The position numbers and the translations under genes were made by a program. This document shows positions 2,163 to 13,016 of a DNA stretch of 47,375 bases, in pieces. Origin of the DNA: Candidatus Rokuibacteriota bacterium (lineage in GTDB: Bacteria > Methylomirabilota > Methylomirabilia > Rokubacteriales > CSP1-6); NCBI GenBank assembly GCA_003220435.1, contig QHSL01000013.1:1-47375 (forward strand), read 5' to 3'. The notes beneath the pieces were generated by a model that was not told the origin of the DNA, did not search any database, and saw only the letters and a program-made list of their open reading frames with translations. The first letter of the stretch is position 1. Every line of letters begins with the position of its first letter.

Positions 2163-2616
2163 ACGCTCAGCCCTCCCTGAAATGACAGGCAACAAGCTTA
2201 CTCCCAAGCCTCCCGAACCGGCAGCGAGATTCTGGTGCTCGATCGCGAAATTTCCGGCCGAAAATGGGCGCGATTCGCCGCTGGTGCCACGTCCGTCGCA
2301 CGCACGATGGACGGTGCCGGCGGATGTTCGCCGTCCCCCACCGATGGCGGTCCCGGTCCGTCGCCGAAACAGCGGCCGCCGTCCCACACGCCAGGATGGC
2401 ACGCCAGGACAATGACAGAAGTTGTCGAGCAAGCGGTCCAGCTGTCACGGCGCTGAACCGGGCGCATGAGCTAAGTCTCGACGGTATCGCGTTTGTCGAG
2501 CCTTCGCTGCGCCAACGCGGCGCCTCTCCGAGCGGTTTCCCCCTGGCAGACGGGTTGCACCTCAACACGATGGCGACAAAAAGGCCACGTGTCGCAGGGG
2601 AGGAGATTGCCTGTCG
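2163..2616. other. Intergenic region upstream of the chemosensory operon
   Basis: About 450 bases between the divergent small gene and the operon. No open frame here has both a credible start and a recognisable protein. It contains two copies of TTGTCGAGC (2422-2430 and 2493-2501), a sigma-54-like element near its right end, and a GGGGAGGAGA ribosome site just before the first operon gene. Confidence 0.6.
2544..2558 (+). promoter_or_regulatory. Candidate sigma-54 (-24/-12) promoter
   Basis: TGGCAGACGGGTTGC has the invariant GG and GC separated by exactly ten bases and matches most of the TGGCAC-N5-TTGC consensus. The predicted transcript start is near 2570, about 47 bases before the first ATG of the operon. 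No enhancer-binding-protein gene is in the window. Short GC-rich matches can arise by chance. Confidence 0.4.
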
Positions 2617-2979
2617 ATGGCCAAGGTAATGGTGGTCGACGACGCCTATTCAGAGCTCAAGGTGATGGAGACGATCCTGCGGTCGGCCGGCCACGATGTC
2701 GTGACGTACCTCGACGGCGACCAGCTCGAGGAGAAGATCGTCAGGGAGCGCCCGGACGTGGTGCTCCTGGACATCGTCATGCCCAAGCGCAACGGCTTCG
2801 AGGTGCTCCGTGCGCTCCGCAAGGACGACCGCACCCGGCAGACGCGCGTGGTCGTGGTCAGCTCGAAGAACCAGGAGAGCGATCGCGTGTGGGGCCTGCG
2901 GCAAGGCGCGGACGAGTACCTGCCCAAGCCGTTCACGCCCGACCAGCTGCTGGCGGCCGTACGGAGGTTCGCGCGGTGA
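2617..2979 (+). CDS. Single-domain response regulator (CheY/PilH-like)
   Basis: A 120-residue stand-alone receiver, the usual length for CheY, PilG or PilH. The acidic pair is D8/D9, the phospho-acceptor D52 lies in VLLDIVMPKRNG, the switch serine is S82 or S83, and the invariant lysine is K104 in LPKPF. There is no output domain, so it should act by protein binding after phosphorylation by the CheA further down. The start has a strong GGAGG site. Its last codons overlap the GTG of the CheW gene. Position before cheW and a PilJ-like receptor suggests a Pil-Chp-type regulator rather than a flagellar CheY; this is inference. Confidence 0.92.
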   Translation: MAKVMVVDDAYSELKVMETILRSAGHDVVTYLDGDQLEEKIVRERPDVVLLDIVMPKRNGFEVLRALRKDDRTRQTRVVVVSSKNQESDRVWGLRQGADEYLPKPFTPDQLLAAVRRFAR

Positions 2980-3425
2980 CCACGAACCTGCTCGACAGCT
3001 CGGCGGCACTCCGGGCGTGCGTGTTCACGCTCGCCGGGATGCCGTACGCGGTCGACGTCGCCCAGGTCAGGGAAGTGGCGATCTTCGACGAGTGGACGGT
3101 GATGCCGCTGGCCCCGCCCAACGTCCTCGGCGTGGCAAACCTGCGCGGAGATGTCCTGGCGATTGCGGACGCCCGCCCGCTGCTCGGGCTGCCGTCGCAG
3201 CGTACCGGGCGCCGCCAGTGGACGCTGGTCGTGGCCGCCGAGGGGCTCGAGGCCGCGATCGTCATCGACGGCGTCGTCAGCCTCGAGGCCTTCACCGGCG
3301 TCGTGCCGCTCGACGAGCCGAGCGCGCCGCACGCCCAGTGGACGCTGGGTGCCCTCACCGGCGAGCAGGGGCGCGTGCCGCTGCTCGACGCGGTGAAGCT
3401 CTTGCGAGCGCTCAGAGAGGGGTGA
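2976..3425 (+). CDS. cheW: CheW-like coupling protein
   Basis: A 149-residue CheW-domain protein that should link the receptor to CheA in a cytoplasmic array. Visible hallmarks are the FTLAGMPYAVDVAQVREV opening strands, the NVLGVANLRGDVLAIADAR core that is the most conserved part of CheW, and a late VVSLEAF segment. It starts at GTG 2976 in a GTGA overlap with the receiver stop, so translation is probably coupled. Its TGA overlaps the ATG of the binding-protein gene. It is as short as PilI-type CheW proteins. Family assignment is firm; the specific PilI role is inferred from neighbours. Confidence 0.92.
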   Translation: MTTNLLDSSAALRACVFTLAGMPYAVDVAQVREVAIFDEWTVMPLAPPNVLGVANLRGDVLAIADARPLLGLPSQRTGRRQWTLVVAAEGLEAAIVIDGVVSLEAFTGVVPLDEPSAPHAQWTLGALTGEQGRVPLLDAVKLLRALREG

Positions 3426-4738
3426 TGACGATCAAGCGTCGGAGCGTGCTCAAGATCCTCTCCGGAGCGGTGGCGGGCGGTGTCCTGGGCCGTGATCCCG
3501 CCCGCGCGTGGGCACAGCTTCCGCCTCGGGGCGTCGTCGAGCCGCGACTGGCCAGCGCGCCCGGCGTCACGCCGAAGGACATCAAGATCGGCATGAGCGC
3601 CGCCTTCAAGGGGCCCTCGGCCGGGCTGGGCACCGAGCTCTATCGCGGCGCGAGCGCGTACTACGCCGAGGTGAACCAGCGCGGCGGCGTGCACGGCCGG
3701 ACGATCTCGGTGGCGGCGCTCGACGACGGCTACGAGCCGACGCCCTGCATCAAGAACACGATCACGCTCGTCGAGCGCGAGCAGGTCTTCTTCCTCTCGA
3801 ACTACGTCGGCACGCCCACGCTCACACGCGCGCTGCCGGTGATCAAACGCTACGCCGACCGGCAGGTGATCCTGGTCGGGAACTTCACGGGCGCCCAGCC
3901 CCAGCGTGAGGACCCCTACGTCGAGCAGGTCTTCAACATCCGCGCCTCGTACCGCCAGGAGATGATGGCCCTGGTCGACCGCTTCTGGCAGGCGGGCGCC
4001 CGCAAGTTCGGCGTCTATTACCAGATCGACGCGTACGGCCGGAGCGGAACCGACGGCGTCGCGCGCGGCCTCGCCCAGCGCGGCGCCCGGATCGCCGCCG
4101 AGGCGACGTATGTCCGCGGCGCAAAGTTCGAGGACGACATGACGCCGGCGGTGCAGGCGCTCCGCCACGCCGGGGTCGACGTCGTGCTGTGCACGGGCGC
4201 CTACCAGGGCTGCGGCGCATTCGTCCGGACCGCGCGCGACCTCGGCTGGAACGCGCCCATCTCCAACGTCTCGTTCGTGGGCTCGGAGGCGATGCTGGGC
4301 CTGCTGCTCAAGCAAGGCAAGAGCGCCGGGCGTGACTACACCCAGGCGCTCGTCAACTCGCAGGTGGTGCCGAGCTACGACGACCTGAGCCTTCCCGGCG
4401 TCGTCGAGTACCGCACGCTGATGGAGCGGTACAAGCCGCTGGTGCCGGAGACGCTCCGCGACGCCAAGTACCCGCCCGAGCAGCTCAGCTTCCGCAGCCT
4501 CGAAGGGTTCGTCAACGCCAAGGTGATCGTGGAGGGGCTGCGACGCGCCGGCCCCAACCCGACGCGCGCCAGCTTCCGGCAGGCGCTCGAATCGCTGCGC
4601 AGCTTCGACCTCGGCATCGGGGCGCCGCTCACCTTCGGGCCGGAGCGCCACCAGGGATTGGACAGCGTGTATTTCACCAGTGTCGTGAATGGACGGTGGG
4701 TCCCTGTCACCGACTGGACCGCCGCGATGAAGGCATGA
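3425..4738 (+). CDS. ABC-type branched-chain amino acid/urea-like substrate-binding protein inside chemosensory operon
   Basis: A 437-residue periplasmic binding protein of the LivK/Peripla_BP_6 type. The N-terminus [14 protein letters not shown] carries a twin-arginine motif and a hydrophobic core, followed by mature sequence beginning near residue 30. The strand [16 protein letters not shown], the segment [19 protein letters not shown] and the later [14 protein letters not shown] are typical of the two-lobe fold. It has no permease or ATPase partner here. Its ATG overlaps the CheW stop and its stop overlaps the receptor ATG, so it is a fixed part of the operon. The likely job is to present a ligand to the receptor next door. 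The ligand is unknown. Confidence 0.9.
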
Positions 4739-6510
4739 ACCGACGACGCACGCTTCGTATCGGTCTGCTCCCCAAGATCGTCCTGTTCCTGGCCGCGGTG
4801 CTCGTCCCGCTGGCGGCGATCACGTGGTGGATCTCCGTTCAGCGGATGACCGCGAATCTGACCGACGAGTTCACCTCCAAGGGCACCGCGATCGCGAAGA
4901 GCCTCGCCAGCTCCGGCGTCGATCTCCTGCTCACGCGCGACGCCTCGACCGTGCAGGCGATCGTCGATCAGTTCGCGGCGATCAACGGCGTCAAGTACGT
5001 GATGGTGTACGACCCGCAGGCGAATCTGGTCGCCCACACCTTCTCGCCGCTGGTCCCCCCCGGCATCGTGGAGCGCAACGCCGTGCCCGGCGAGGCGGCG
5101 CAGCAGATCCGGGAGATCGCGTATCCCGATCCGGTCACCGGCGCCGTCCAGGAGATCATCGACATCGGCGTCCCGGTGCTGGCGGGCCAGCTCGGGACGG
5201 TTCGCGTGGGCATGGATCGCGCGATCATCGCGGCGGCGGCCACCCGGTCCGGCGAGTACCTGCTGCTCGCCTTCGGCGGCGCCGCGCTGGTTGCGATCGG
5301 CGCGGGCGCGCTCTTCGCTCACCGGATCATCCGGCCGGTGGGCCAGCTGGTCCAGGTGGCGGAGCGCGTCGGTCAGGGCGACCTCTCGAAGCTGGTTCCC
5401 GTCCGCTCGCGCGACGAGATCGGCCAGCTCGCGATGACGTTCAACGAGGCCATCGTGCGCCTGCGCTCGCTCGTGCAGACCGAGGCCGAGCGCGACGAGG
5501 AGCGGCGACGGCACGAGGATCTCCAGCGCAACATCACGCGGTTCCTCGACGTCGCCACCGAGATCTCCCAGGGCGACCTGACCCGGCGCGGCGAGGTCAC
5601 CTCGGACGTCCTCGGCAGCGTCGTCGACGCCATCAACGTGATGGTCGCCGAGCTGGCGACGATCATCGACGACGTGCGCGAGGCCGCCCAGCAAGTCTTG
5701 GCCAACGCCAACGAGATGATCGGCGCCATGGAACAGACGGCGGGCGGCGCCCAGACCCAGTCGCGCGAGGCGGTCTCCGTCAGCAACGCGATGGAGACGC
5801 TGACGCGCTCCATGCGCCGGGTGGCCGAGGACGCCGAGGCGTCGTCGGCCGCGGCCCGTCGCGCCTTCGACGCCGCGACGACGGGCGAGCAGGCCGTGCG
5901 CGCGAGCCTGACCGGCATGCAGCGCATCCGGGGCGAGGTGCAGCGAATCTCGCGGAAGGTCAAGAGCCTCGCCGACCGGTCGCTCGAGATCTCGGAGATC
6001 GTGAACACCATCGAGGACATCGCCTCGCAGACCCACCTCTTGGCCCTGAACGCCGCCATCGAGGCGGCGGGCGCCGGGGAATCGGGCCTGCGCTTCGCGG
6101 TCGTGGCCGAGGAAGTGCGCAAGCTCGCCGAGCGCTCCGGCAAGGCCGCCAAGGACATCGTGGTGCTCATCAAGGCGGTCCAGTCCGAGACGCAGCAGGC
6201 GGTCGTGGCCATGGAAGAAGGCACCAAGGAAGTGGAGGCGGGCTACAAGGTCACCGTCGAGGCCGGCGACAGTCTCCACCAGATCGGCGAGATCTCGCAG
6301 AAATCCTCGGCGCTGGCGTGGGACATCTCGCAGGCGACGCAGGAGCAGGTGCGCGGCGTCGAGGGCGGCGCGGTCGCCGTCCAGTCCATCGCGGGCGTCG
6401 CGGTCCAGACCGAGAAGGCCGTCCTCGAGACGCGCAAGACCATGGACCAGCTGGTCCGGGTCGCCGAGGCGCTGATGGCGAGCCTCTCGCGGTTCAAGCT
6501 GGCCGCGTGA
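4735..6510 (+). CDS. Methyl-accepting chemotaxis protein (PilJ-like)
   Basis: A 591-residue receptor starting at ATG 4735 (ATGA overlap with the binding-protein stop). One membrane helix lies near residues 13-34, a periplasmic region of about 140 residues follows, and a second helix lies near 174-197. HAMP covers about 198-250, and a second HAMP-like or PilJ-type segment ([13 protein letters not shown]) about 268-320. The coiled-coil signalling domain has its hairpin tip at [14 protein letters not shown] (about 432-446) and continues into [15 protein letters not shown]. The tip departs from the usual EAARAGE. It should bind CheW and CheA. The small periplasmic domain may receive the binding protein encoded just upstream; this is inferred from linkage. 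Confidence 0.92.
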
Positions 6511-6535: not shown

Positions 6536-9340
6536 GTGAGCGACGGCACCGATCAGCAGTTCCTGCAGAGCGTCTTCCTGATGGAAGCGTGGGACACCCT
6601 TGCCTCCATCGAGGAGGGCCTCGCCGCGCTCACCCGCTCGCCGGAGGCGACGGCCAGCGTCGAGCAGCTCCGCCTCGTGACGCACCGGCTGCGTGGCTCG
6701 GCGGCGCTCAACGGGCTGCCCCAGCTGGCGGCCCTCGCCGCGGCCATGGAAGAGACGGTCGAGCGTCTGGCCGTCGCGCGGCCCGGCACCGGCGGGCGGG
6801 ACGTGGAGGCGCTCTGCGCGATGGCGGTCGTGCTCAAGGCGGCGCTCGACACCATCGGCACCACCGGTACCGAGGACGCCGAGGCGATCGCGACCGCGCT
6901 TGCGCGGCACGCGCCCTCGTCGACGCCCGGGGCCTCCAGCGAGACGACGCGCAAGCTCGCCGAGCTCGACACGTTCTTCGGCGAGCGGATGGACGTGCTC
7001 GAGTACTTCGTGCCCGAGGCCGTCGAGCACCTGGAGTCGATGGCGCAGTCGCTCATGGCCCTCGAGCGCGACGGCTCGACCGACACCGAGATCGCGACGC
7101 TGTTCCGCGCCGTCCACACACTCAAGGGCGCCGCCTACACCGTCGGCTGCGGGATCATCGGCGACCTCGCCCACCGCATCGAGGACATGCTGGGAGAGGT
7201 CCGGGAGGGCCGGCGGACCCTGACACGACCGGCGATCGAGACGGTCTTCGCGGGCATGGACGCGCTCCGGGTGCTGGTGCGCAGCGCGGAGGACCCCGTG
7301 GAGGGGCGCGCGGCGGCCTACGACCGCGCGCTCGCGCTGCTCGCCTCGCTGCCGGCGGTCGAGGCCGAAGGGGCGGGCGAGCCGGCGCGCGAGGTGGCGC
7401 GCGAGCTCGCGACGCGGGTCAGCGGCGTGGGCGAGTCGACGGCCGTCGCGCACCGGGCGGAGGTCGCGCGCCCGATCCGTCCGAGCATCCGGGTCAACCT
7501 CGACCGGCTCGACTCGCTGATGAGCCTCGTCGGCGAGCTGGTGATCGCGCGGAGCCGGCTCGAGCGCCACCTGGGCCAGCTCGAGCAGGCCGGCGATCTC
7601 CTGTCGTTCACGCAGTCGCGCATGACCCAGACCGTCGCCGAGTTCGAATCCAAGTATGCGAGCCGCCAGGTGCCGCCGGCCGAGGAGGCGGGGCGGCCGA
7701 GCGACGGCGCGGCGGTGCCGCTGGGCGACGTGTTCACCGAGCTGGAGTTCGATCGCTACGACGACTTCAACCTATTGGCCCGCCGGGTCGGCGAGATTTC
7801 GAGCGATCTGACCGAGATCCAGCTCCAGCTGCACGGGCTCGTGCGCGTCGTGCGCGAAGATGCGGGGAGCGTGCAGCGGCTCAGCGGTGAGCTGCGCGGC
7901 CACGTCACCCGCGCGCGTCTGGTGCCGATCGGCCGCCTCTTCGCGCGGTTCGCCCGCCAGGTGCGTGAGGGCGCGCGGTCGGCCGGCAAGACCGTCGTGC
8001 TCGAGGTCCGCGGCGAGACGGTCGAGATGGACACCGCGATCGTGCAGCAGATGGTCGGCCCGCTCCTCCACCTGGTGCGCAACGCGATCAACCACGGCAT
8101 CGAGACCGAAGCGGAGCGGCGCCGGCTCGGGAAGTCGAGTCACGGCACCATCCACCTCGGCGCCGCCCACACCGGCGGATCCATCTACCTCGAGGTCGTG
8201 GACGACGGTCGCGGGATCGACATCACGGCCGTCGCCCAGGCCGCACGGCGTGGCGGCTTCGTGACGCCGGAGTCGCTCGCGCGGCTCGGCGAGCGCGAGG
8301 TCCTCGATCTGATCTTCCTCCCCGGCCTCACCACCGCTTCGGCGGTGACGGCCGAGGCGGGCCGCGGCGTCGGTATGGACGTCGTGCGCACGAACGTCAG
8401 CCGACTCGGCGGCGAGATCGAGGTCCAGACCGCGGTCGGCCGCGGCACGCGCTTCCGGATCAAGCTGCCGCTGACGATCGCGATCTCCGACGTGCTCAAG
8501 GTGCGCGTGGGATCCGAGATCCTGGCGGTGCCGGTGTCCGCGGTGCGGTCGATGATCGAGGTGAGCCCCGAGGAGATCCGCTCCGCCAGCGGCATGGAGA
8601 CGGTGGAGGTCGAGGGCCAGGAGGTGGATCTGGTCCGCCTGGACCGCCTGCTCGGCCTCGGCAGCCGTCCGTCCGGGGCCCTCGTGTCGATCGTGGTGCT
8701 GCGCACGGGACGCAAGCTCCTGGCGGCGGCGGTGGACGAGCTGCTCGCCAAGGAAGAGATCGTGGTGAAGGGTCTCGGCGGCTTCCTCCAGGGGTTCGGC
8801 CCGTTCTCGGGTGCGAGCGTCGTCGGCGACGGTGGGGTCATGCTGCTGCTCGATCCGCTGTCGCTCCTCGAGATGAGCGCCGCCGCCACCCTGGAGCCCA
8901 CGCCGGCGCTCGAGTCCGGTGGGCGCCCCGCCGTCGCGGCGTCGGCTTCCGACGGCCGGCCTTGCGTGCTGCTCGTCGACGACTCCGTCAGCGTGCGGAA
9001 GTTCGTGGGCGGGATGCTCGAACGCGCCGGGTTCCGGGTGGCCGCCGCCCGGGATGGCGCCGACGCGCTGGAGCAGCTCGCCGAGCAGCCCGTGAGCGTC
9101 GTGGTCACGGATCTGGAGATGCCGCGCGTGAACGGCTACGAGCTCATCCGGGACCTCAGCCGGGAGCCGGCCACGCGCGATCTGCCGGTCGTGGTGCTGA
9201 CCACGCGGGCGGGCGCCAAGCACGTGAGCCTCGCGCGCGAGCTGGGAGTCGAGCACTACGTCGCCAAACCCGTCGACGAGGCGTCCTTCGTCCAGCTCAT
9301 CGAGTCGCTGGCGGGGACGGCGCCGGCGCGGGTGGCATGA
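6536..9340 (+). CDS. cheA: Hybrid CheA histidine kinase with C-terminal receiver (ChpA-like)
   Basis: A 934-residue hybrid kinase. Two Hpt domains are visible: H50 in THRLRGSAALNG and H194 in VHTLKGAAYTVG. The dimerisation region begins near 315 (VNLDRLDSLMSLVGELVIARS) and contains a ChpA-like insertion with LEFDRYDDFNLLARR. The ATPase domain has HLVRNAINHGIE, VDDGRGID and GRGVGMDVV. A CheW-like regulatory domain covers about 650-790. A receiver (LLVDDSVSVRKF, VTDLEMPRVNGYE, YVAKPVD) occupies about 805-925. The GTG start at 6536 has a GGGAG site. It should phosphorylate its own receiver and the two single receivers of the operon. No CheB or CheR accompanies it. Confidence 0.93.
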   Translation: MSDGTDQQFLQSVFLMEAWDTLASIEEGLAALTRSPEATASVEQLRLVTHRLRGSAALNGLPQLAALAAAMEETVERLAVARPGTGGRDVEALCAMAVVLKAALDTIGTTGTEDAEAIATALARHAPSSTPGASSETTRKLAELDTFFGERMDVLEYFVPEAVEHLESMAQSLMALERDGSTDTEIATLFRAVHTLKGAAYTVGCGIIGDLAHRIEDMLGEVREGRRTLTRPAIETVFAGMDALRVLVRSAEDPVEGRAAAYDRALALLASLPAVEAEGAGEPAREVARELATRVSGVGESTAVAHRAEVARPIRPSIRVNLDRLDSLMSLVGELVIARSRLERHLGQLEQAGDLLSFTQSRMTQTVAEFESKYASRQVPPAEEAGRPSDGAAVPLGDVFTELEFDRYDDFNLLARRVGEISSDLTEIQLQLHGLVRVVREDAGSVQRLSGELRGHVTRARLVPIGRLFARFARQVREGARSAGKTVVLEVRGETVEMDTAIVQQMVGPLLHLVRNAINHGIETEAERRRLGKSSHGTIHLGAAHTGGSIYLEVVDDGRGIDITAVAQAARRGGFVTPESLARLGEREVLDLIFLPGLTTASAVTAEAGRGVGMDVVRTNVSRLGGEIEVQTAVGRGTRFRIKLPLTIAISDVLKVRVGSEILAVPVSAVRSMIEVSPEEIRSASGMETVEVEGQEVDLVRLDRLLGLGSRPSGALVSIVVLRTGRKLLAAAVDELLAKEEIVVKGLGGFLQGFGPFSGASVVGDGGVMLLLDPLSLLEMSAAATLEPTPALESGGRPAVAASASDGRPCVLLVDDSVSVRKFVGGMLERAGFRVAAARDGADALEQLAEQPVSVVVTDLEMPRVNGYELIRDLSREPATRDLPVVVLTTRAGAKHVSLARELGVEHYVAKPVDEASFVQLIESLAGTAPARVA

Positions 9341-9347
9341 GGTCGCG

Positions 9348-10157
9348 ATGCCGCGCCTGCTGTTGATCGACCCCGACCGCGACGGTCTCGACGCCCTGCA
9401 CGCGGCGCTGCGCCGCGCCGGCTTCGACGACGTCGCGACCGTGACCAGCGGAGCGTTCGCGCTGACCACGCTGGAACGCAACCGCCCCGACCTGATCGTG
9501 AGCCGCGCAAGCGTGCCGGATATCGACGGCCATGAGCTGTGCGCCATCGTACGCAACGATCCATCGATGACGGGCGTGCTGTTTCTCCTGCTCGAGGGCC
9601 CGGGCGATCACGCCCCGGAGCCCCAGCACGAGGACAAGCCGGACCAGGTCCTCGCCGGCGACCTGCCGCTCGCCACGATCGTGTCCGCGGTCGCCGCGCT
9701 GCTGCAGGAGCACGACGAGTCCGACGAGGCGGAGGCCGAGCTCGCGGGCCGGCCCACCGCCCCTGCCGCGCCGGTCGAGGCCGCACCGGCCGAAGAGGCG
9801 CCGCCGCCCGGCGCGTTCGAGGTGATGAAGCTGGCGGAGACCATGCAGGAAATCGTCGTGGGCACGAAGACCGGCCGCCTGGTCCTCACGCTGTGCTCGG
9901 GGCGAGGCGTCATCATCTTCGAGCGCGGAAAGGTCGTGCACGCCGAGTTCTTCGGGCTCATCGGCGAGACGGCCTTCGCGGCGCTCCTGGTCGCGGCGCA
10001 CGGAGAGGCTCAAGGCACCTTCGGCTTCGAGGCGCTCGTGGCGCTGCCGCCGAACGCGATGCGAACGATCAACCGCGATCTCAAGCAGCTCCTGTTGAGT
10101 GCTGCCGCCGGGATCGACGAGGGCCGCGCGGGCGCGGCCGTGGCTCCGGTTTCGTAG
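9348..10157 (+). CDS. Degenerate receiver fused to DUF4388/PATAN domain
   Basis: A 269-residue protein. Residues 1-120 have the receiver fold pattern, but all catalytic positions are altered: the acidic pair is D-P (LLIDPDRDG), the phospho-aspartate position in LIVSRASVPDIDG is arginine, and the conserved lysine is missing (LAGDLPL). It is therefore probably not phosphorylated. After an Ala/Pro/Glu linker comes a DUF4388 (PATAN) domain at about 155-255 with GTKTGRLVLTL, GVIIFERGKVVHAEF and GTFGFE. PATAN regulators of cyanobacteria act on type IV pilus motor proteins, which makes a pilus-directed output plausible. It starts 7 bases after the CheA stop. Confidence 0.85.
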   Translation: MPRLLLIDPDRDGLDALHAALRRAGFDDVATVTSGAFALTTLERNRPDLIVSRASVPDIDGHELCAIVRNDPSMTGVLFLLLEGPGDHAPEPQHEDKPDQVLAGDLPLATIVSAVAALLQEHDESDEAEAELAGRPTAPAAPVEAAPAEEAPPPGAFEVMKLAETMQEIVVGTKTGRLVLTLCSGRGVIIFERGKVVHAEFFGLIGETAFAALLVAAHGEAQGTFGFEALVALPPNAMRTINRDLKQLLLSAAAGIDEGRAGAAVAPVS

Positions 10158-10167
10158 GAGGCTCTGG

Positions 10168-10770
10168 ATGGCCAAGGTCCTGGTAGTGGACGACAGCCTG
10201 AGCGTCAGGAAAGTAGTCGAGAAGGCGCTCGAGGGTCGCGGCATGCAAGTGCTGTCCGCCGCGTCCGGCGCCGAAGCGCTCGAGCGGATCGAGCGCGACC
10301 GGCCCGACGTCGTGATCTGCGACGTCATCCTGCCCGACAAGGACGGCTATCAGATCTGTCAGTTCGTGCGGAAGCACCCGGCGATCAGCACGACGCCGGT
10401 GCTGCTCATCTCCGGCGTGGACAACGGCACCGTGCAGGCACGCGCCGCCGAGGTGAAGTCCGACGAGGTGATGTTCAAGCCGTTCGGCGTCGACGAGCTC
10501 GTCCGGAAGGTCGACGGCCTGCTGCGCAGCCGGACCAACGGTGCGGCGGCGGCCGCGAACGGAGCCCCGGCCGCGTCGGCCTCGGCTCCGGCCCAGACCC
10601 CGGCCGCGTCCGCGCCGGTCGCCGCCCCCGCTGCTGCCGCCGCCGGCCGCGTCCGACGCGAGCGACCGGGCGACCCTGGGCGAAGGTCTGAAGCGTCGGC
10701 TGGAGGAGCTCACCGACACGCCCGGTGTCCGCTTCGCCGTGCTCGCGGATCGCGAGGGGTTCATCATTGA
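10168..10770 (+). CDS. Response regulator receiver with Ala/Pro-rich tail; likely N-terminal half of a frameshifted fusion
   Basis: The reading frame gives 200 residues. Residues 1-120 are an intact receiver: VLVVDDS, phospho-acceptor in VVICDVILPDKDG, and K in MFKPFG. An Ala/Pro/Ser linker follows up to about 10640. Beyond that the same frame becomes Arg-rich and nonsense-like (RVRRERPGDPGRR), while the +1 frame begins a clear Roadblock domain. I read this as a receiver-linker-Roadblock protein with one extra base in the linker, for example in the C5 run at 10625-10629. TAGGAGG just before the ATG is a good ribosome site. Sequencing error, recent mutation or a programmed shift are all possible. 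Confidence 0.85.
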   Translation: MAKVLVVDDSLSVRKVVEKALEGRGMQVLSAASGAEALERIERDRPDVVICDVILPDKDGYQICQFVRKHPAISTTPVLLISGVDNGTVQARAAEVKSDEVMFKPFGVDELVRKVDGLLRSRTNGAAAAANGAPAASASAPAQTPAASAPVAAPAAAAAGRVRRERPGDPGRRSEASAGGAHRHARCPLRRARGSRGVHH

Positions 10771-11035
10771 GACGGCAGGCGAGCTGACGCCGGGCGCCGA
10801 CGAGGTGGCCGGCGCGCTCGCCTCCTGCCTCGCTGAGGCCTCGAGTGGCATCGGCCGCGAGCTCGGACAGGGCCAGCTGCTCGGCACGATTCTCGAGTAC
10901 GAGAGCGGCACGCTCCTGCTCCATGCCATCTCGCCGTCGGCGCTGCTCGCCGTCCTGCTGAGCGATCCGGGCGCGCTCGGCAAGGTTCGCTACTACGTCA
11001 GGAAGGCCGTACCGGAGCTCGCGCGGACCCTCTGA
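10541..11035 (+). CDS. Roadblock/LC7 domain protein (probably C-terminal half of the preceding regulator)
   Basis: The frame opens at GTG 10541, but its first 40 residues are an Arg/Pro shadow of the receiver's linker, so real coding probably begins near 10650. From there GEGLKRRLEELTDTPGVRFAV, DREGFIIETAG, ADEVAGALAS and a closing LLLHAISPSALLAVLLSD form a complete Roadblock/LC7 fold of about 120 residues. Such domains act as MglB-like GTPase regulators or dimeric scaffolds. No convincing independent start or ribosome site precedes the domain, supporting fusion to the upstream receiver. Its TGA overlaps the ATG of the next gene (TGATG), so this frame appears to be the translated one. Confidence 0.75.
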   Translation: MRRRPRTEPRPRRPRLRPRPRPRPRRSPPPLLPPPAASDASDRATLGEGLKRRLEELTDTPGVRFAVLADREGFIIETAGELTPGADEVAGALASCLAEASSGIGRELGQGQLLGTILEYESGTLLLHAISPSALLAVLLSDPGALGKVRYYVRKAVPELARTL

Positions 11036-12993
11036 TGCCCCCTCGGCGCGTCGCGAAGGTGACCGCGGCCACGTGGCTCGGGCTCCTGCTGAGCCTCGAG
11101 CTCTACGCATGCGCCATGCTGGCGCTCCGCAGCTTCGCGGCGACGCCGCTGCTCCCGTCGTGGCCGTCGCTGGTGATCCCGCCGCTGGTGGTTCCGCCGA
11201 TCGTGTACGTGGTCGTGGGGCTCCTGGGACTGCGCCCGCTCTCGCTGGCCCGCCGCATCGCCGCGATCGCCGCGATGTGCCTGCTCCACGCGCTGCTCGT
11301 CCTGGCGACGGCTGCGCTCTACACGGGACCGGATCTCACCGAGTACGAAGCGGCGCTCGCGGTGGCGCTCTGGGGCTCGCCGGCGGTGACGCTGCTCCAG
11401 CTCACGGCGGTGCTCCTCGTGTCGGCGCGCCTCCACCCCTTGCTTCAGGTGCGCCGGCGCGCCCCGAGCGTCGAGACGCGCGTGGCGCCGCTGCTGCGCC
11501 ACCCCGCCGAGATGACGCTTCAGAGGCCGTTCGTCTACCCCGGCACCGCGGCTGCGCGAGCCAGAATGGCGAAGATCGCGGTACGCGGGCCCGCTCGGGC
11601 AACGCCTCCCGAAGCGCCCTCCGTGCCGCCGGCGCCGACGCACGCGGTGGCCGAGCCAGCGCCTGAGCCCGCGTTCGTGGTCGCGCCGTTCAATGCGGCG
11701 GAAAAGATGATTCGCGTGCCGTTCGACCGGGTCGCGGACCAGCTCCCGGTCGAGATGTTCGTGCGGGCTCGTGAGGGGTTGAGCGACACGCTGCGCCCCG
11801 GCGTCTCGCTGCTCGTCCCGCTGCGCCTGGTCGTGCCGCAGCTCAGCGCGGGACGCGTGCGGGTGCGATGGGAGGAGATCGCCGATCAGTTCCCGCACGA
11901 CGAGCTCGCGCTGCCGCACGCGGAGATCGCGCGCCGGCTCCCACACGGCTCTCTCGTTCTCCCGCTCGACGAGGTGGTGCCGCAGGTCCCGGCCGAGATC
12001 CTCGAGCGCGTCGCGCCGCCGACCGACATCGACGCCATCGACGACCTCCGGCCATCGGTCGAGGCGCCTGCCCCTGAGGCTCCGGACACCGCGGTGGCAC
12101 GTGGGGCGCCCGCCGTGGAGACTCCGCCCGCCCCGCACGATACGTCGCCCGCAGTCGAAGCGCCGCCGGTCCCGCAGCCGACGGTGCCCGAGCCGGTGAT
12201 GGGGGCGCCGGCAGACCACGCGCTCACCGGCGAGGCGCGACGTGTCGCCGCGATGCTCGCGCCGCTCATGAGCGGGCTCGAGGTCGGTGAGCACCTCGAC
12301 GCCGGCACGACGCTCGTCACCGTCGTGGCGCCGCCCCTTCGCGAGGAGTCGGTCGTGCGCACCGCGACGCGCATCCGGCCGTTTCTGACCGACCCGCGGC
12401 TCTCGGCACCCGCGGCCCAGGCGACGCTGGTGGGGAAGGAGGCGACGATCGTGCTGACGCCGTTCGGGTCGTCGCTGCTCGTGGCGGCGGTCGCTTCCCG
12501 CTCGTCGCTGGCATGGCTCGAGCGCCTTTCGCGAAGCGCCGTGGCCCGCGCGCGCGCAACCGAGCGGAGCGACGCACACTCCGGACGCAATGGTAGCTCC
12601 GCCCGCAAACCGGGGCTGCACGTCGCGCGGGTGCCGTCGACCGTGCGCGAGCTCGCGGACTCGCTGACGGCGTTCGGTCCGGTGGCGCCGACCGTGCTGC
12701 GGGACGGCGAAGGATCGCTGAGCGCGTGTCTCTTCCTGCCGCACACCGTGGAGGCCGTGCCGCTGGCCGAGCTCGCGCGCGACCTCTACGCCGCGCTGGA
12801 GGACGCCGAGATCGGGCCGGTGACGTCGGTGACGTTGCGCCTCGGCGAGAATCGCATCGTCCTCCGCGTCGTCGCCGGCCCGTCAATGCCGCCGACGATG
12901 CTGGTCGGCGGCGGGCCCATCGATCGGCCTGGGCTGGCGCGCATCGAGCTGGAACGCGCGGCGGAACGGCTGAGCGCGCTCGCGCGGACCTGA
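11035..12993 (+). CDS. Membrane protein with four N-terminal helices, VPL-type tandem repeats and possible Roadblock-like tail
   Basis: A 652-residue protein I do not recognise as a named family. Four hydrophobic segments lie at about 11-33, 46-66, 75-95 and 105-130. A Pro/Ala linker leads to five copies of a 16-17-residue unit (226-242, 259-274, 275-291, 292-307, 308-323) with the pattern hxhPhxxhxxQhP, for example IRVPFDRVADQLPVEMF and LVLPLDEVVPQVPAEIL. After another Pro-rich linker, two regions (about 390-500 and 530-640) have alternating strands and helices like Roadblock/LC7 folds, for example ATIVLTPFGSSLLVAAVAS. It is coupled to the upstream gene by a TGATG overlap and ends the operon. 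A membrane anchor for the Roadblock regulator is a reasonable guess. Confidence 0.8.
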   Translation: MPPRRVAKVTAATWLGLLLSLELYACAMLALRSFAATPLLPSWPSLVIPPLVVPPIVYVVVGLLGLRPLSLARRIAAIAAMCLLHALLVLATAALYTGPDLTEYEAALAVALWGSPAVTLLQLTAVLLVSARLHPLLQVRRRAPSVETRVAPLLRHPAEMTLQRPFVYPGTAAARARMAKIAVRGPARATPPEAPSVPPAPTHAVAEPAPEPAFVVAPFNAAEKMIRVPFDRVADQLPVEMFVRAREGLSDTLRPGVSLLVPLRLVVPQLSAGRVRVRWEEIADQFPHDELALPHAEIARRLPHGSLVLPLDEVVPQVPAEILERVAPPTDIDAIDDLRPSVEAPAPEAPDTAVARGAPAVETPPAPHDTSPAVEAPPVPQPTVPEPVMGAPADHALTGEARRVAAMLAPLMSGLEVGEHLDAGTTLVTVVAPPLREESVVRTATRIRPFLTDPRLSAPAAQATLVGKEATIVLTPFGSSLLVAAVASRSSLAWLERLSRSAVARARATERSDAHSGRNGSSARKPGLHVARVPSTVRELADSLTAFGPVAPTVLRDGEGSLSACLFLPHTVEAVPLAELARDLYAALEDAEIGPVTSVTLRLGENRIVLRVVAGPSMPPTMLVGGGPIDRPGLARIELERAAERLSALART

Positions 12994-12995
12994 GC

Positions 12996-13010
12996 CGGCG
13001 GCGTCCGCCG
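12996..13010. terminator. GC hairpin between convergent genes
   Basis: CGGCGG and CCGCCG form a 6-bp stem around CGT, just after the stop of the chemosensory operon and just before the stop of dapL on the opposite strand. There is no T-run, so function as a shared terminator is inferred from position. Confidence 0.4.
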
Positions 13011-13016
13011 CTCGCC

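Follow-up and report, generated by a model that had tools for sequence, protein, structure and literature searches.

The window, i.e. the whole stretch of 47,375 nucleotides of Candidatus Rokuibacteriota contig QHSL01000013.1 that was analysed here, carries a set of chemosensory genes followed by a gene for a membrane protein of 652 amino acids. The features of this locus are as follows:

2883 to 3425, + strand: CheW-like domain, within the open reading frame 2493-3425
3530 to 4738, + strand: periplasmic binding protein (Peripla_BP_6), by domain match and neighbourhood survey
4696 to 6510, + strand: methyl-accepting chemotaxis protein (MCP) with sCache_3_2, HAMP and MCPsignal domains
6536 to 9340, + strand: CheA-response regulator hybrid kinase, present in 21 of 22 neighbourhoods
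9348 to 10157, + strand: response regulator with DUF4388, present in 21 of 22 neighbourhoods
10168 to 11035, + strand: CheY-Roadblock fusion gene with a broken frame (CheY part 10168 to about 10540, Roadblock part 10682-11035)
11035 to 12993, + strand: membrane protein with transmembrane helices, repeats and two Roadblock-like domains (open reading frame, 652 residues)
11035 to 11451, + strand: four predicted transmembrane helices (residues 1-139; AlphaFold2 pLDDT about 40-76, and hydropathy)
11698 to 12012, + strand: repeat module (residues 222-326), six β-α units of 16-17 residues with a duplicated half of 49 residues
12211 to 12564, + strand: Roadblock-like domain 1 (residues 393-510; core pLDDT 80-90 in AlphaFold2)
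12616 to 12990, + strand: Roadblock-like domain 2 (residues 528-652; core pLDDT 85-89 in AlphaFold2)
12994 to 13016, no strand: gap at the place where relatives carry mglA, an mglB-like gene and often a NERD gene, all absent here

The surroundings of the membrane protein gene were surveyed at 22 places, namely the window, 19 fetched loci, L059 and L063. The genes of the cluster follow the order MCP, CheA-response regulator, DUF4388-response regulator, CheY-Roadblock, membrane protein, MglA and MglB. The one place without the hybrid kinase, the DUF4388 protein and the CheY-Roadblock protein is L048, whose contig starts too late to include them; the CheY-Roadblock gene thus lies directly upstream of the membrane protein at every place where the contig reaches that far (21 of 22). 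Both parts of its product are recognised by Pfam (Response_reg, E 2.9e-24; Robl_LC7, E 3.2e-13). They form one uninterrupted match in 19 of the 22 places; the window and L041 (genome G004) have them as two pieces. The nearest relative of the window, G003, encodes a single protein of 263 amino acids with both Pfam domains. In the window the frame changes in the linker, a GC-rich stretch from about 10,540 to 10,680, either through a sequencing error or through a real mutation. Most probably, then, the Roadblock reading frame 10541-11035 is not a gene of its own and is the C-terminal half of the CheY-Roadblock fusion. A first reading made from the sequence alone had coupled the membrane protein to a separate Roadblock gene: the linkage to a Roadblock holds across the surveyed places, and the separate gene most probably does not.

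Several further features were observed among the upstream genes. The Peripla_BP_6 gene overlaps the start of the MCP gene (3530-6510 in the window) and adjoins it in most relatives, so that its product is possibly a ligand-binding partner of the MCP. At 2617-2979 there is a response-regulator-like stretch that is 30% identical to the CheY part; it is read in a different frame from CheW (2883-3425), with which it overlaps, and this overlap recurs in several relatives. In some relatives a CheB gene is located between CheA and the DUF4388 response regulator (L040, 5480-7402; L059, 1365-2519; L044, 6008-9367), and L040 has a further CheW at the same place.

The start codon of the membrane protein gene (position 11035) overlaps the stop of the Roadblock reading frame (11033-11035) by one base, and this ATG is kept in most aligned relatives. 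Neither the protein nor any of 18 scanned members of its family is covered by a Pfam or NCBIfam family. The best Pfam match, DUF1409, lies under the cut-off (E 0.021) and was set aside as sub-threshold noise, together with matches of the protein and its relatives to SDR. The profile of the whole family found nothing credible among PDB sequences (best E 0.39). The open reading frame 11035-12993 on which the sequence-only reading was based is real, and its product represents an uncharacterised membrane protein family; the count of four helices in that reading also agrees with the AlphaFold2 model and with hydropathy.

The full-length AlphaFold2 model was built from a 13-row alignment (mean pLDDT 64.7, pTM 0.41). 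The predicted transmembrane helices span residues about 5-36, 44-65, 71-100 and 104-137, the last one being broken at residue 115; the loops between them are short and form no periplasmic domain in the model. Residues 135-222 and 330-395 are modelled as disordered linkers with pLDDT below 50. As judged by eye, the N-terminus, the loop 65-75 and the segment 138-155 are basic and the loop 99-106 is acidic. Because of these charges flanking the helices, the sequence suggests that the C-terminal part of the protein is cytoplasmic. The dN/dS ratio was estimated by region in five genome pairs. It is well below 1 in the transmembrane part, the repeat module and the C-terminal domains, and reaches 0.56-1.61 in the linkers. 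The transmembrane part gives 0.158-0.273 in four pairs and 0.578 in the fifth, and its near-invariant residues include P54, Y58 and H85.

The repeat module shows a VPL/QLP pattern that recurs each 16-17 residues over about 224-323. The observed repeat score of 107 was reached by none of 300 composition shuffles (maximum 57), and the self-similarity at spacings of 16 and 49 residues in a 15-row alignment was reached by none of 500 column shuffles. The repeats proposed earlier at 226-323 are thus beyond chance, with the count corrected from five to six units: units 1-3 and 4-6 are two copies of one half (E 1.3e-9 and 96% probability in a profile-profile comparison), and unit 2 (about 240-256), regular in L063 and other relatives, has degenerated in the window. 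A separate model of the module, made from 15 rows, shows β-α units with a mean pLDDT of 77.7, mostly 80-89. Of 95 genomes of the phylum 27 have the module, and all matches in these 95 genomes fall inside the membrane protein, so that within the phylum the idea of its occurring in other proteins was rejected. Most members have a single module, and those of G010, G077 and G080 have two per protein. Two of the 29 genomes with the membrane protein (the carriers) yielded none, as G037 lacks the module and the contig of G033 ends ahead of it.

In each of the five genome pairs the module has the lowest dN/dS of all regions: 0.126 (G000/G003; G000 is the genome of the window), 0.143 (G005/G006), 0.223 (G008/G001), 0.334 (G008/G000) and 0.110 (G005/G002). 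This argues for one conserved module under strong purifying selection, and for a domain rather than a set of displayed short motifs. A short linear motif presented several times for avidity, as was first supposed from the recurrence of VPL/QLP, is very improbable: the repeats are contiguous and modelled as one β-α domain, they are the most constrained part of the protein, and the module has a nearly constant length and behaves as one duplicated unit, whereas for motifs on display one would expect differences in number and spacing. The module is undescribed in Pfam and NCBIfam, the two curated libraries searched. Its profile had no credible match among PDB sequences (best E 0.062). Its model, which comes from 15 rows only, gave three Foldseek matches in PDB at E 10 or better, with probabilities of at most 0.03, and no Z of 2 or more against 12 chains in VIA; this lack of a PDB fold does not prove a new one.

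Both C-terminal domains were modelled in the α-β-β-α-β-β-β-α order of Roadblock proteins (residues 393-507 and 535-651), with a short strand at 529-531 preceding the core of domain 2. In a comparison with 998 PDB chains by VIA-align, the top 26 rows are all Roadblock entries (MglB, Ragulator and Asgard Roadblocks) with Z of 5.4-7.0. Domain 1 aligns best to Ragulator chains of the p14/LAMTOR2 type (Z 6.4), and domain 2 to an Asgard Roadblock (Z 7.0) and to Myxococcus xanthus MglB (6hjm, Z 6.9); all Z values for the two domains stay below 8. In Foldseek the full model had no match in PDB at E 0.001 or better, and Ragulator chains were found with probabilities of 0.99-1.00 and TM-scores of 0.62-0.66 by target. 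The list is crowded by 4-hydroxyphenylpyruvate dioxygenases (probability up to 0.21, TM-scores up to 0.13), which were dismissed as noise because of the high probability of the Roadblock rows.

Sequence comparison shows domain 1 and domain 2 to be related (hhalign E 7.8e-5, 62% probability). Neither the window protein nor any of the 18 scanned members matched Robl_LC7 (PF03259) at E 1 or better, comparison of the domains with the neighbouring Roadblocks by hhalign was not significant (E 0.043-0.72), and the family profile found no MglB chain in PDB up to E 1. Since the Robl_LC7 match is lacking, the C-terminus is assigned here to a Roadblock-like fold supported by the models and not to the Robl_LC7 family. 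The two Roadblock-like regions recognised beforehand from strand patterns are in this way recovered by structure prediction and fold search.

The membrane protein was found in Ca. Rokubacteria. Two conserved peptides scanned over contigs of 84,980 species gave 13 loci, all in metagenome-assembled genomes of Ca. Rokubacteria/Methylomirabilota, in a scan that would miss distant relatives in other phyla. No match was found in plasmid records. The family profile matches 29 of the 95 genomes of the phylum: 28 of the 60 in the order of the window, and the outlier G072, a genome with 8% contamination. Within the order, Robl_LC7 is present in all 28 genomes with the membrane protein and in none of the 32 without it. 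Throughout the phylum it was found in 48 of 95 genomes; outside the order 20 of 35 have it, among which only G072 has the membrane protein. A search of the open-licence literature yielded no paper on Rokubacteria with Roadblock or MglA, on Methylomirabilota with Roadblock, or on a tandem, transmembrane Roadblock LC7 with a GTPase in bacteria; on Roadblock domains together with transmembrane helices in bacteria it yielded one, PMC11255338.

By coordinates, MglA is encoded directly downstream of the membrane protein in 22 of the 29 carriers. At the 22 surveyed places it adjoins in 16, and an MglB-like Roadblock then follows in all of these except L047. The one GTPase compared with solved structures, that of G005, matches MglA of Thermus (E 1.3e-70) and of Myxococcus (E 2.6e-65), and for the MglB-like family encoded downstream a match to MglB of Myxococcus was obtained at E 2.9e-31. 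The motifs GPGxxGKT (GTG in the L046 row), GDDRT, YTVPGQ and NKRD are kept in 16 aligned GTPases. Two related observations were made outside this arrangement: G004 has on another contig (C472, 2586-3876) a second MglA, divergent with 54% identity, together with two Roadblock matches, and in L059 (8495-9356, - strand) the mglB-like gene is flanked on the opposite strand by another two Roadblock genes and a gene for a TPR protein.

In the window only 23 bases separate the stop of the membrane protein gene from a convergent aminotransferase gene. The MglA site is visible and empty in G000, G003, G008 and G004, and MglB is missing at the locus in the same four genomes; G008 and G004 have kept the NERD gene. 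In G037 no MglA is encoded within the 492 bases available past the stop, and its genome also gave none; the contigs of G033 and G078 end too early to show the site. The genome of the window (95.5% complete) yielded no MglA (best E 0.527) and a single Robl_LC7. In all six genomes tested the Ras-family match lies in a frame of more than 800 amino acids (833 in the genome of the window), which looks like a translation factor.

The history of this loss was followed on a CheA tree of 20 rows, from which L048 (no CheA) and L059 (455 amino acids only) were left out. Counting G037 as MglA-less, with its 492 bases beyond the stop, the five MglA-less loci fall into more than one clade, and well-supported branches force at least three changes; when the labels were shuffled 500 times, 222 of the shuffles required no more changes than the tree, so that the MglA-less label is not clustered. 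In the MglA-less pair G000/G003 the dN/dS is 0.13-0.40 over the transmembrane part, the module and the domains. On this purifying selection a decaying remnant of a system that had lost MglA was rejected: the lineage of the window lost MglA and MglB at the locus and keeps the membrane protein under selection. A role in the control of MglA cannot be general, because the genome of the window gave no MglA and a single Robl_LC7.

These observations could be read in the sense that the protein is a GTPase-independent adaptor which keeps the CheY-Roadblock protein close to the membrane or the chemosensory array, MglA and MglB being an optional nearby add-on. The CheY-Roadblock gene still adjoins the membrane protein in the four genomes with an empty MglA site, and both the repeated changes on the tree and the persisting selection are in line with such an adaptor. 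On the other hand, the immediate downstream position of MglA in most carriers suggests a functional tie, and the few percent missing from draft genomes could hide a distant copy of MglA. We consider this reading rather unlikely.

The preferred reading, to which we give a probability of roughly 0.6, is that the protein serves as an inner-membrane scaffold of a chemosensory-controlled polarity system of the MglA/MglB type. The platform for a Roadblock assembly suggested by the sequence-only reading is a plausible idea and still the best functional guess, strengthened by the gene context: the exact co-occurrence with Robl_LC7 in the order and the linkage to the CheY-Roadblock gene. The scheme, which is inferred in its membrane topology, Roadblock-Roadblock binding, effect on MglA and output, would work as follows. 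The four transmembrane helices would anchor the scaffold in the inner membrane, and the repeat domain together with the fused Roadblock-like pair would reach into the cytoplasm. The adjacent MCP-CheA kinase would phosphorylate the CheY-Roadblock protein, whose Roadblock part may pair with the Roadblock tandem at the membrane or with MglB; the tandem would then recruit or release MglA at the membrane. In most relatives the Roadblock pair could also offer surfaces to MglB and MglA, so that phospho-signalling would control the place or time of MglA switching. In the lineage of the window, where MglA and MglB are gone from the locus, the CheY-Roadblock protein would use the platform on its own. 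It can be proposed tentatively, as a possibility we are inclined to doubt, that the tandem-Roadblock membrane platform couples the CheY-Roadblock output to the membrane and still works in some lineages after the loss of the Ras-like GTPase.

The output of the system is probably type IV pilus activity or cell polarity. PilT was found in 28 of the 29 carriers at E 1e-60; it is present in 91 of the 95 genomes of the phylum, and its presence in carriers therefore says little. A flagellar output was rejected, as FliG was found in none of the 29 carriers.

It is also conceivable that the protein is itself a membrane sensor, with transmembrane helices that perceive a signal and a Roadblock pair that acts as a GAP or GEF on MglA, in parallel to the MCP-CheA arm. 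The low dN/dS of the transmembrane part in four of the five pairs and its near-invariant P54, Y58 and H85 are in favour of this function, but the protein matches no sensor family in Pfam or NCBIfam, the short loops of the model leave no periplasmic domain, and the protein is kept where MglA is gone. Such a sensor thus seems quite unlikely.

The scaffold reading can be compared with three known systems. According to PMC4316618 and PMC12719032, MglA is acted on by Roadblocks of the MglB type and is connected to chemosensory kinases through response regulators. The MglA/MglB-RomR-Frz system of M. xanthus shares with the present cluster a Ras-like MglA, the Roadblock MglB, a response-regulator link and a chemosensory kinase (PMC4316618, PMC12719032), and sequence comparison matches the GTPase and Roadblock of the relatives to MglA and MglB. 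The proteins through which the kinase is linked to MglA in M. xanthus are encoded apart (PMC4316618). In contrast, the genes discussed here lie together in a single cluster, with a response regulator that is fused to a Roadblock and with an additional four-helix tandem-Roadblock protein.

Conservons (CvnA-D), as described in PMC13343842 and PMC4316618, likewise bring together a membrane sensor kinase side, the Roadblock CvnB and the Ras-like GTPase CvnD. They differ from the present locus, which has a chemotaxis-type CheA with an MCP instead of CvnA and a membrane protein that itself bears Roadblocks. The conservon order of a CvnA-type kinase, CvnB, CvnC and CvnD is not matched by the neighbours found here (MCP, CheA-response regulator, DUF4388-response regulator and CheY-Roadblock), and CvnC, which is DUF742, was not seen among the proteins scanned.

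Ragulator (LAMTOR) consists of membrane-tethered Roadblock pairs that form a platform for Ras-family GTPases, its separate subunits being held by the lipidated p18. The alignment of domain 1 to chains of the p14 type and the membrane tethering of a Roadblock pair are reminiscent of this complex, but here two Roadblocks and the anchor are in one chain. The resemblance is one of architecture, without demonstrated homology of the complex.

In the relatives a single cluster encodes a sensor, a kinase, a response regulator-Roadblock, a membrane Roadblock scaffold, MglA and MglB, and therefore the chain of command can be tested directly once it is moved into a heterologous host. The cluster also suggests a way, recalling Ragulator, in which a Roadblock assembly of bacteria may be attached to the membrane. 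The loss of MglA and MglB with the scaffold kept raises the question whether Roadblock modules have a GTPase-free role; if true, this would be a Roadblock signalling system without its GTPase.
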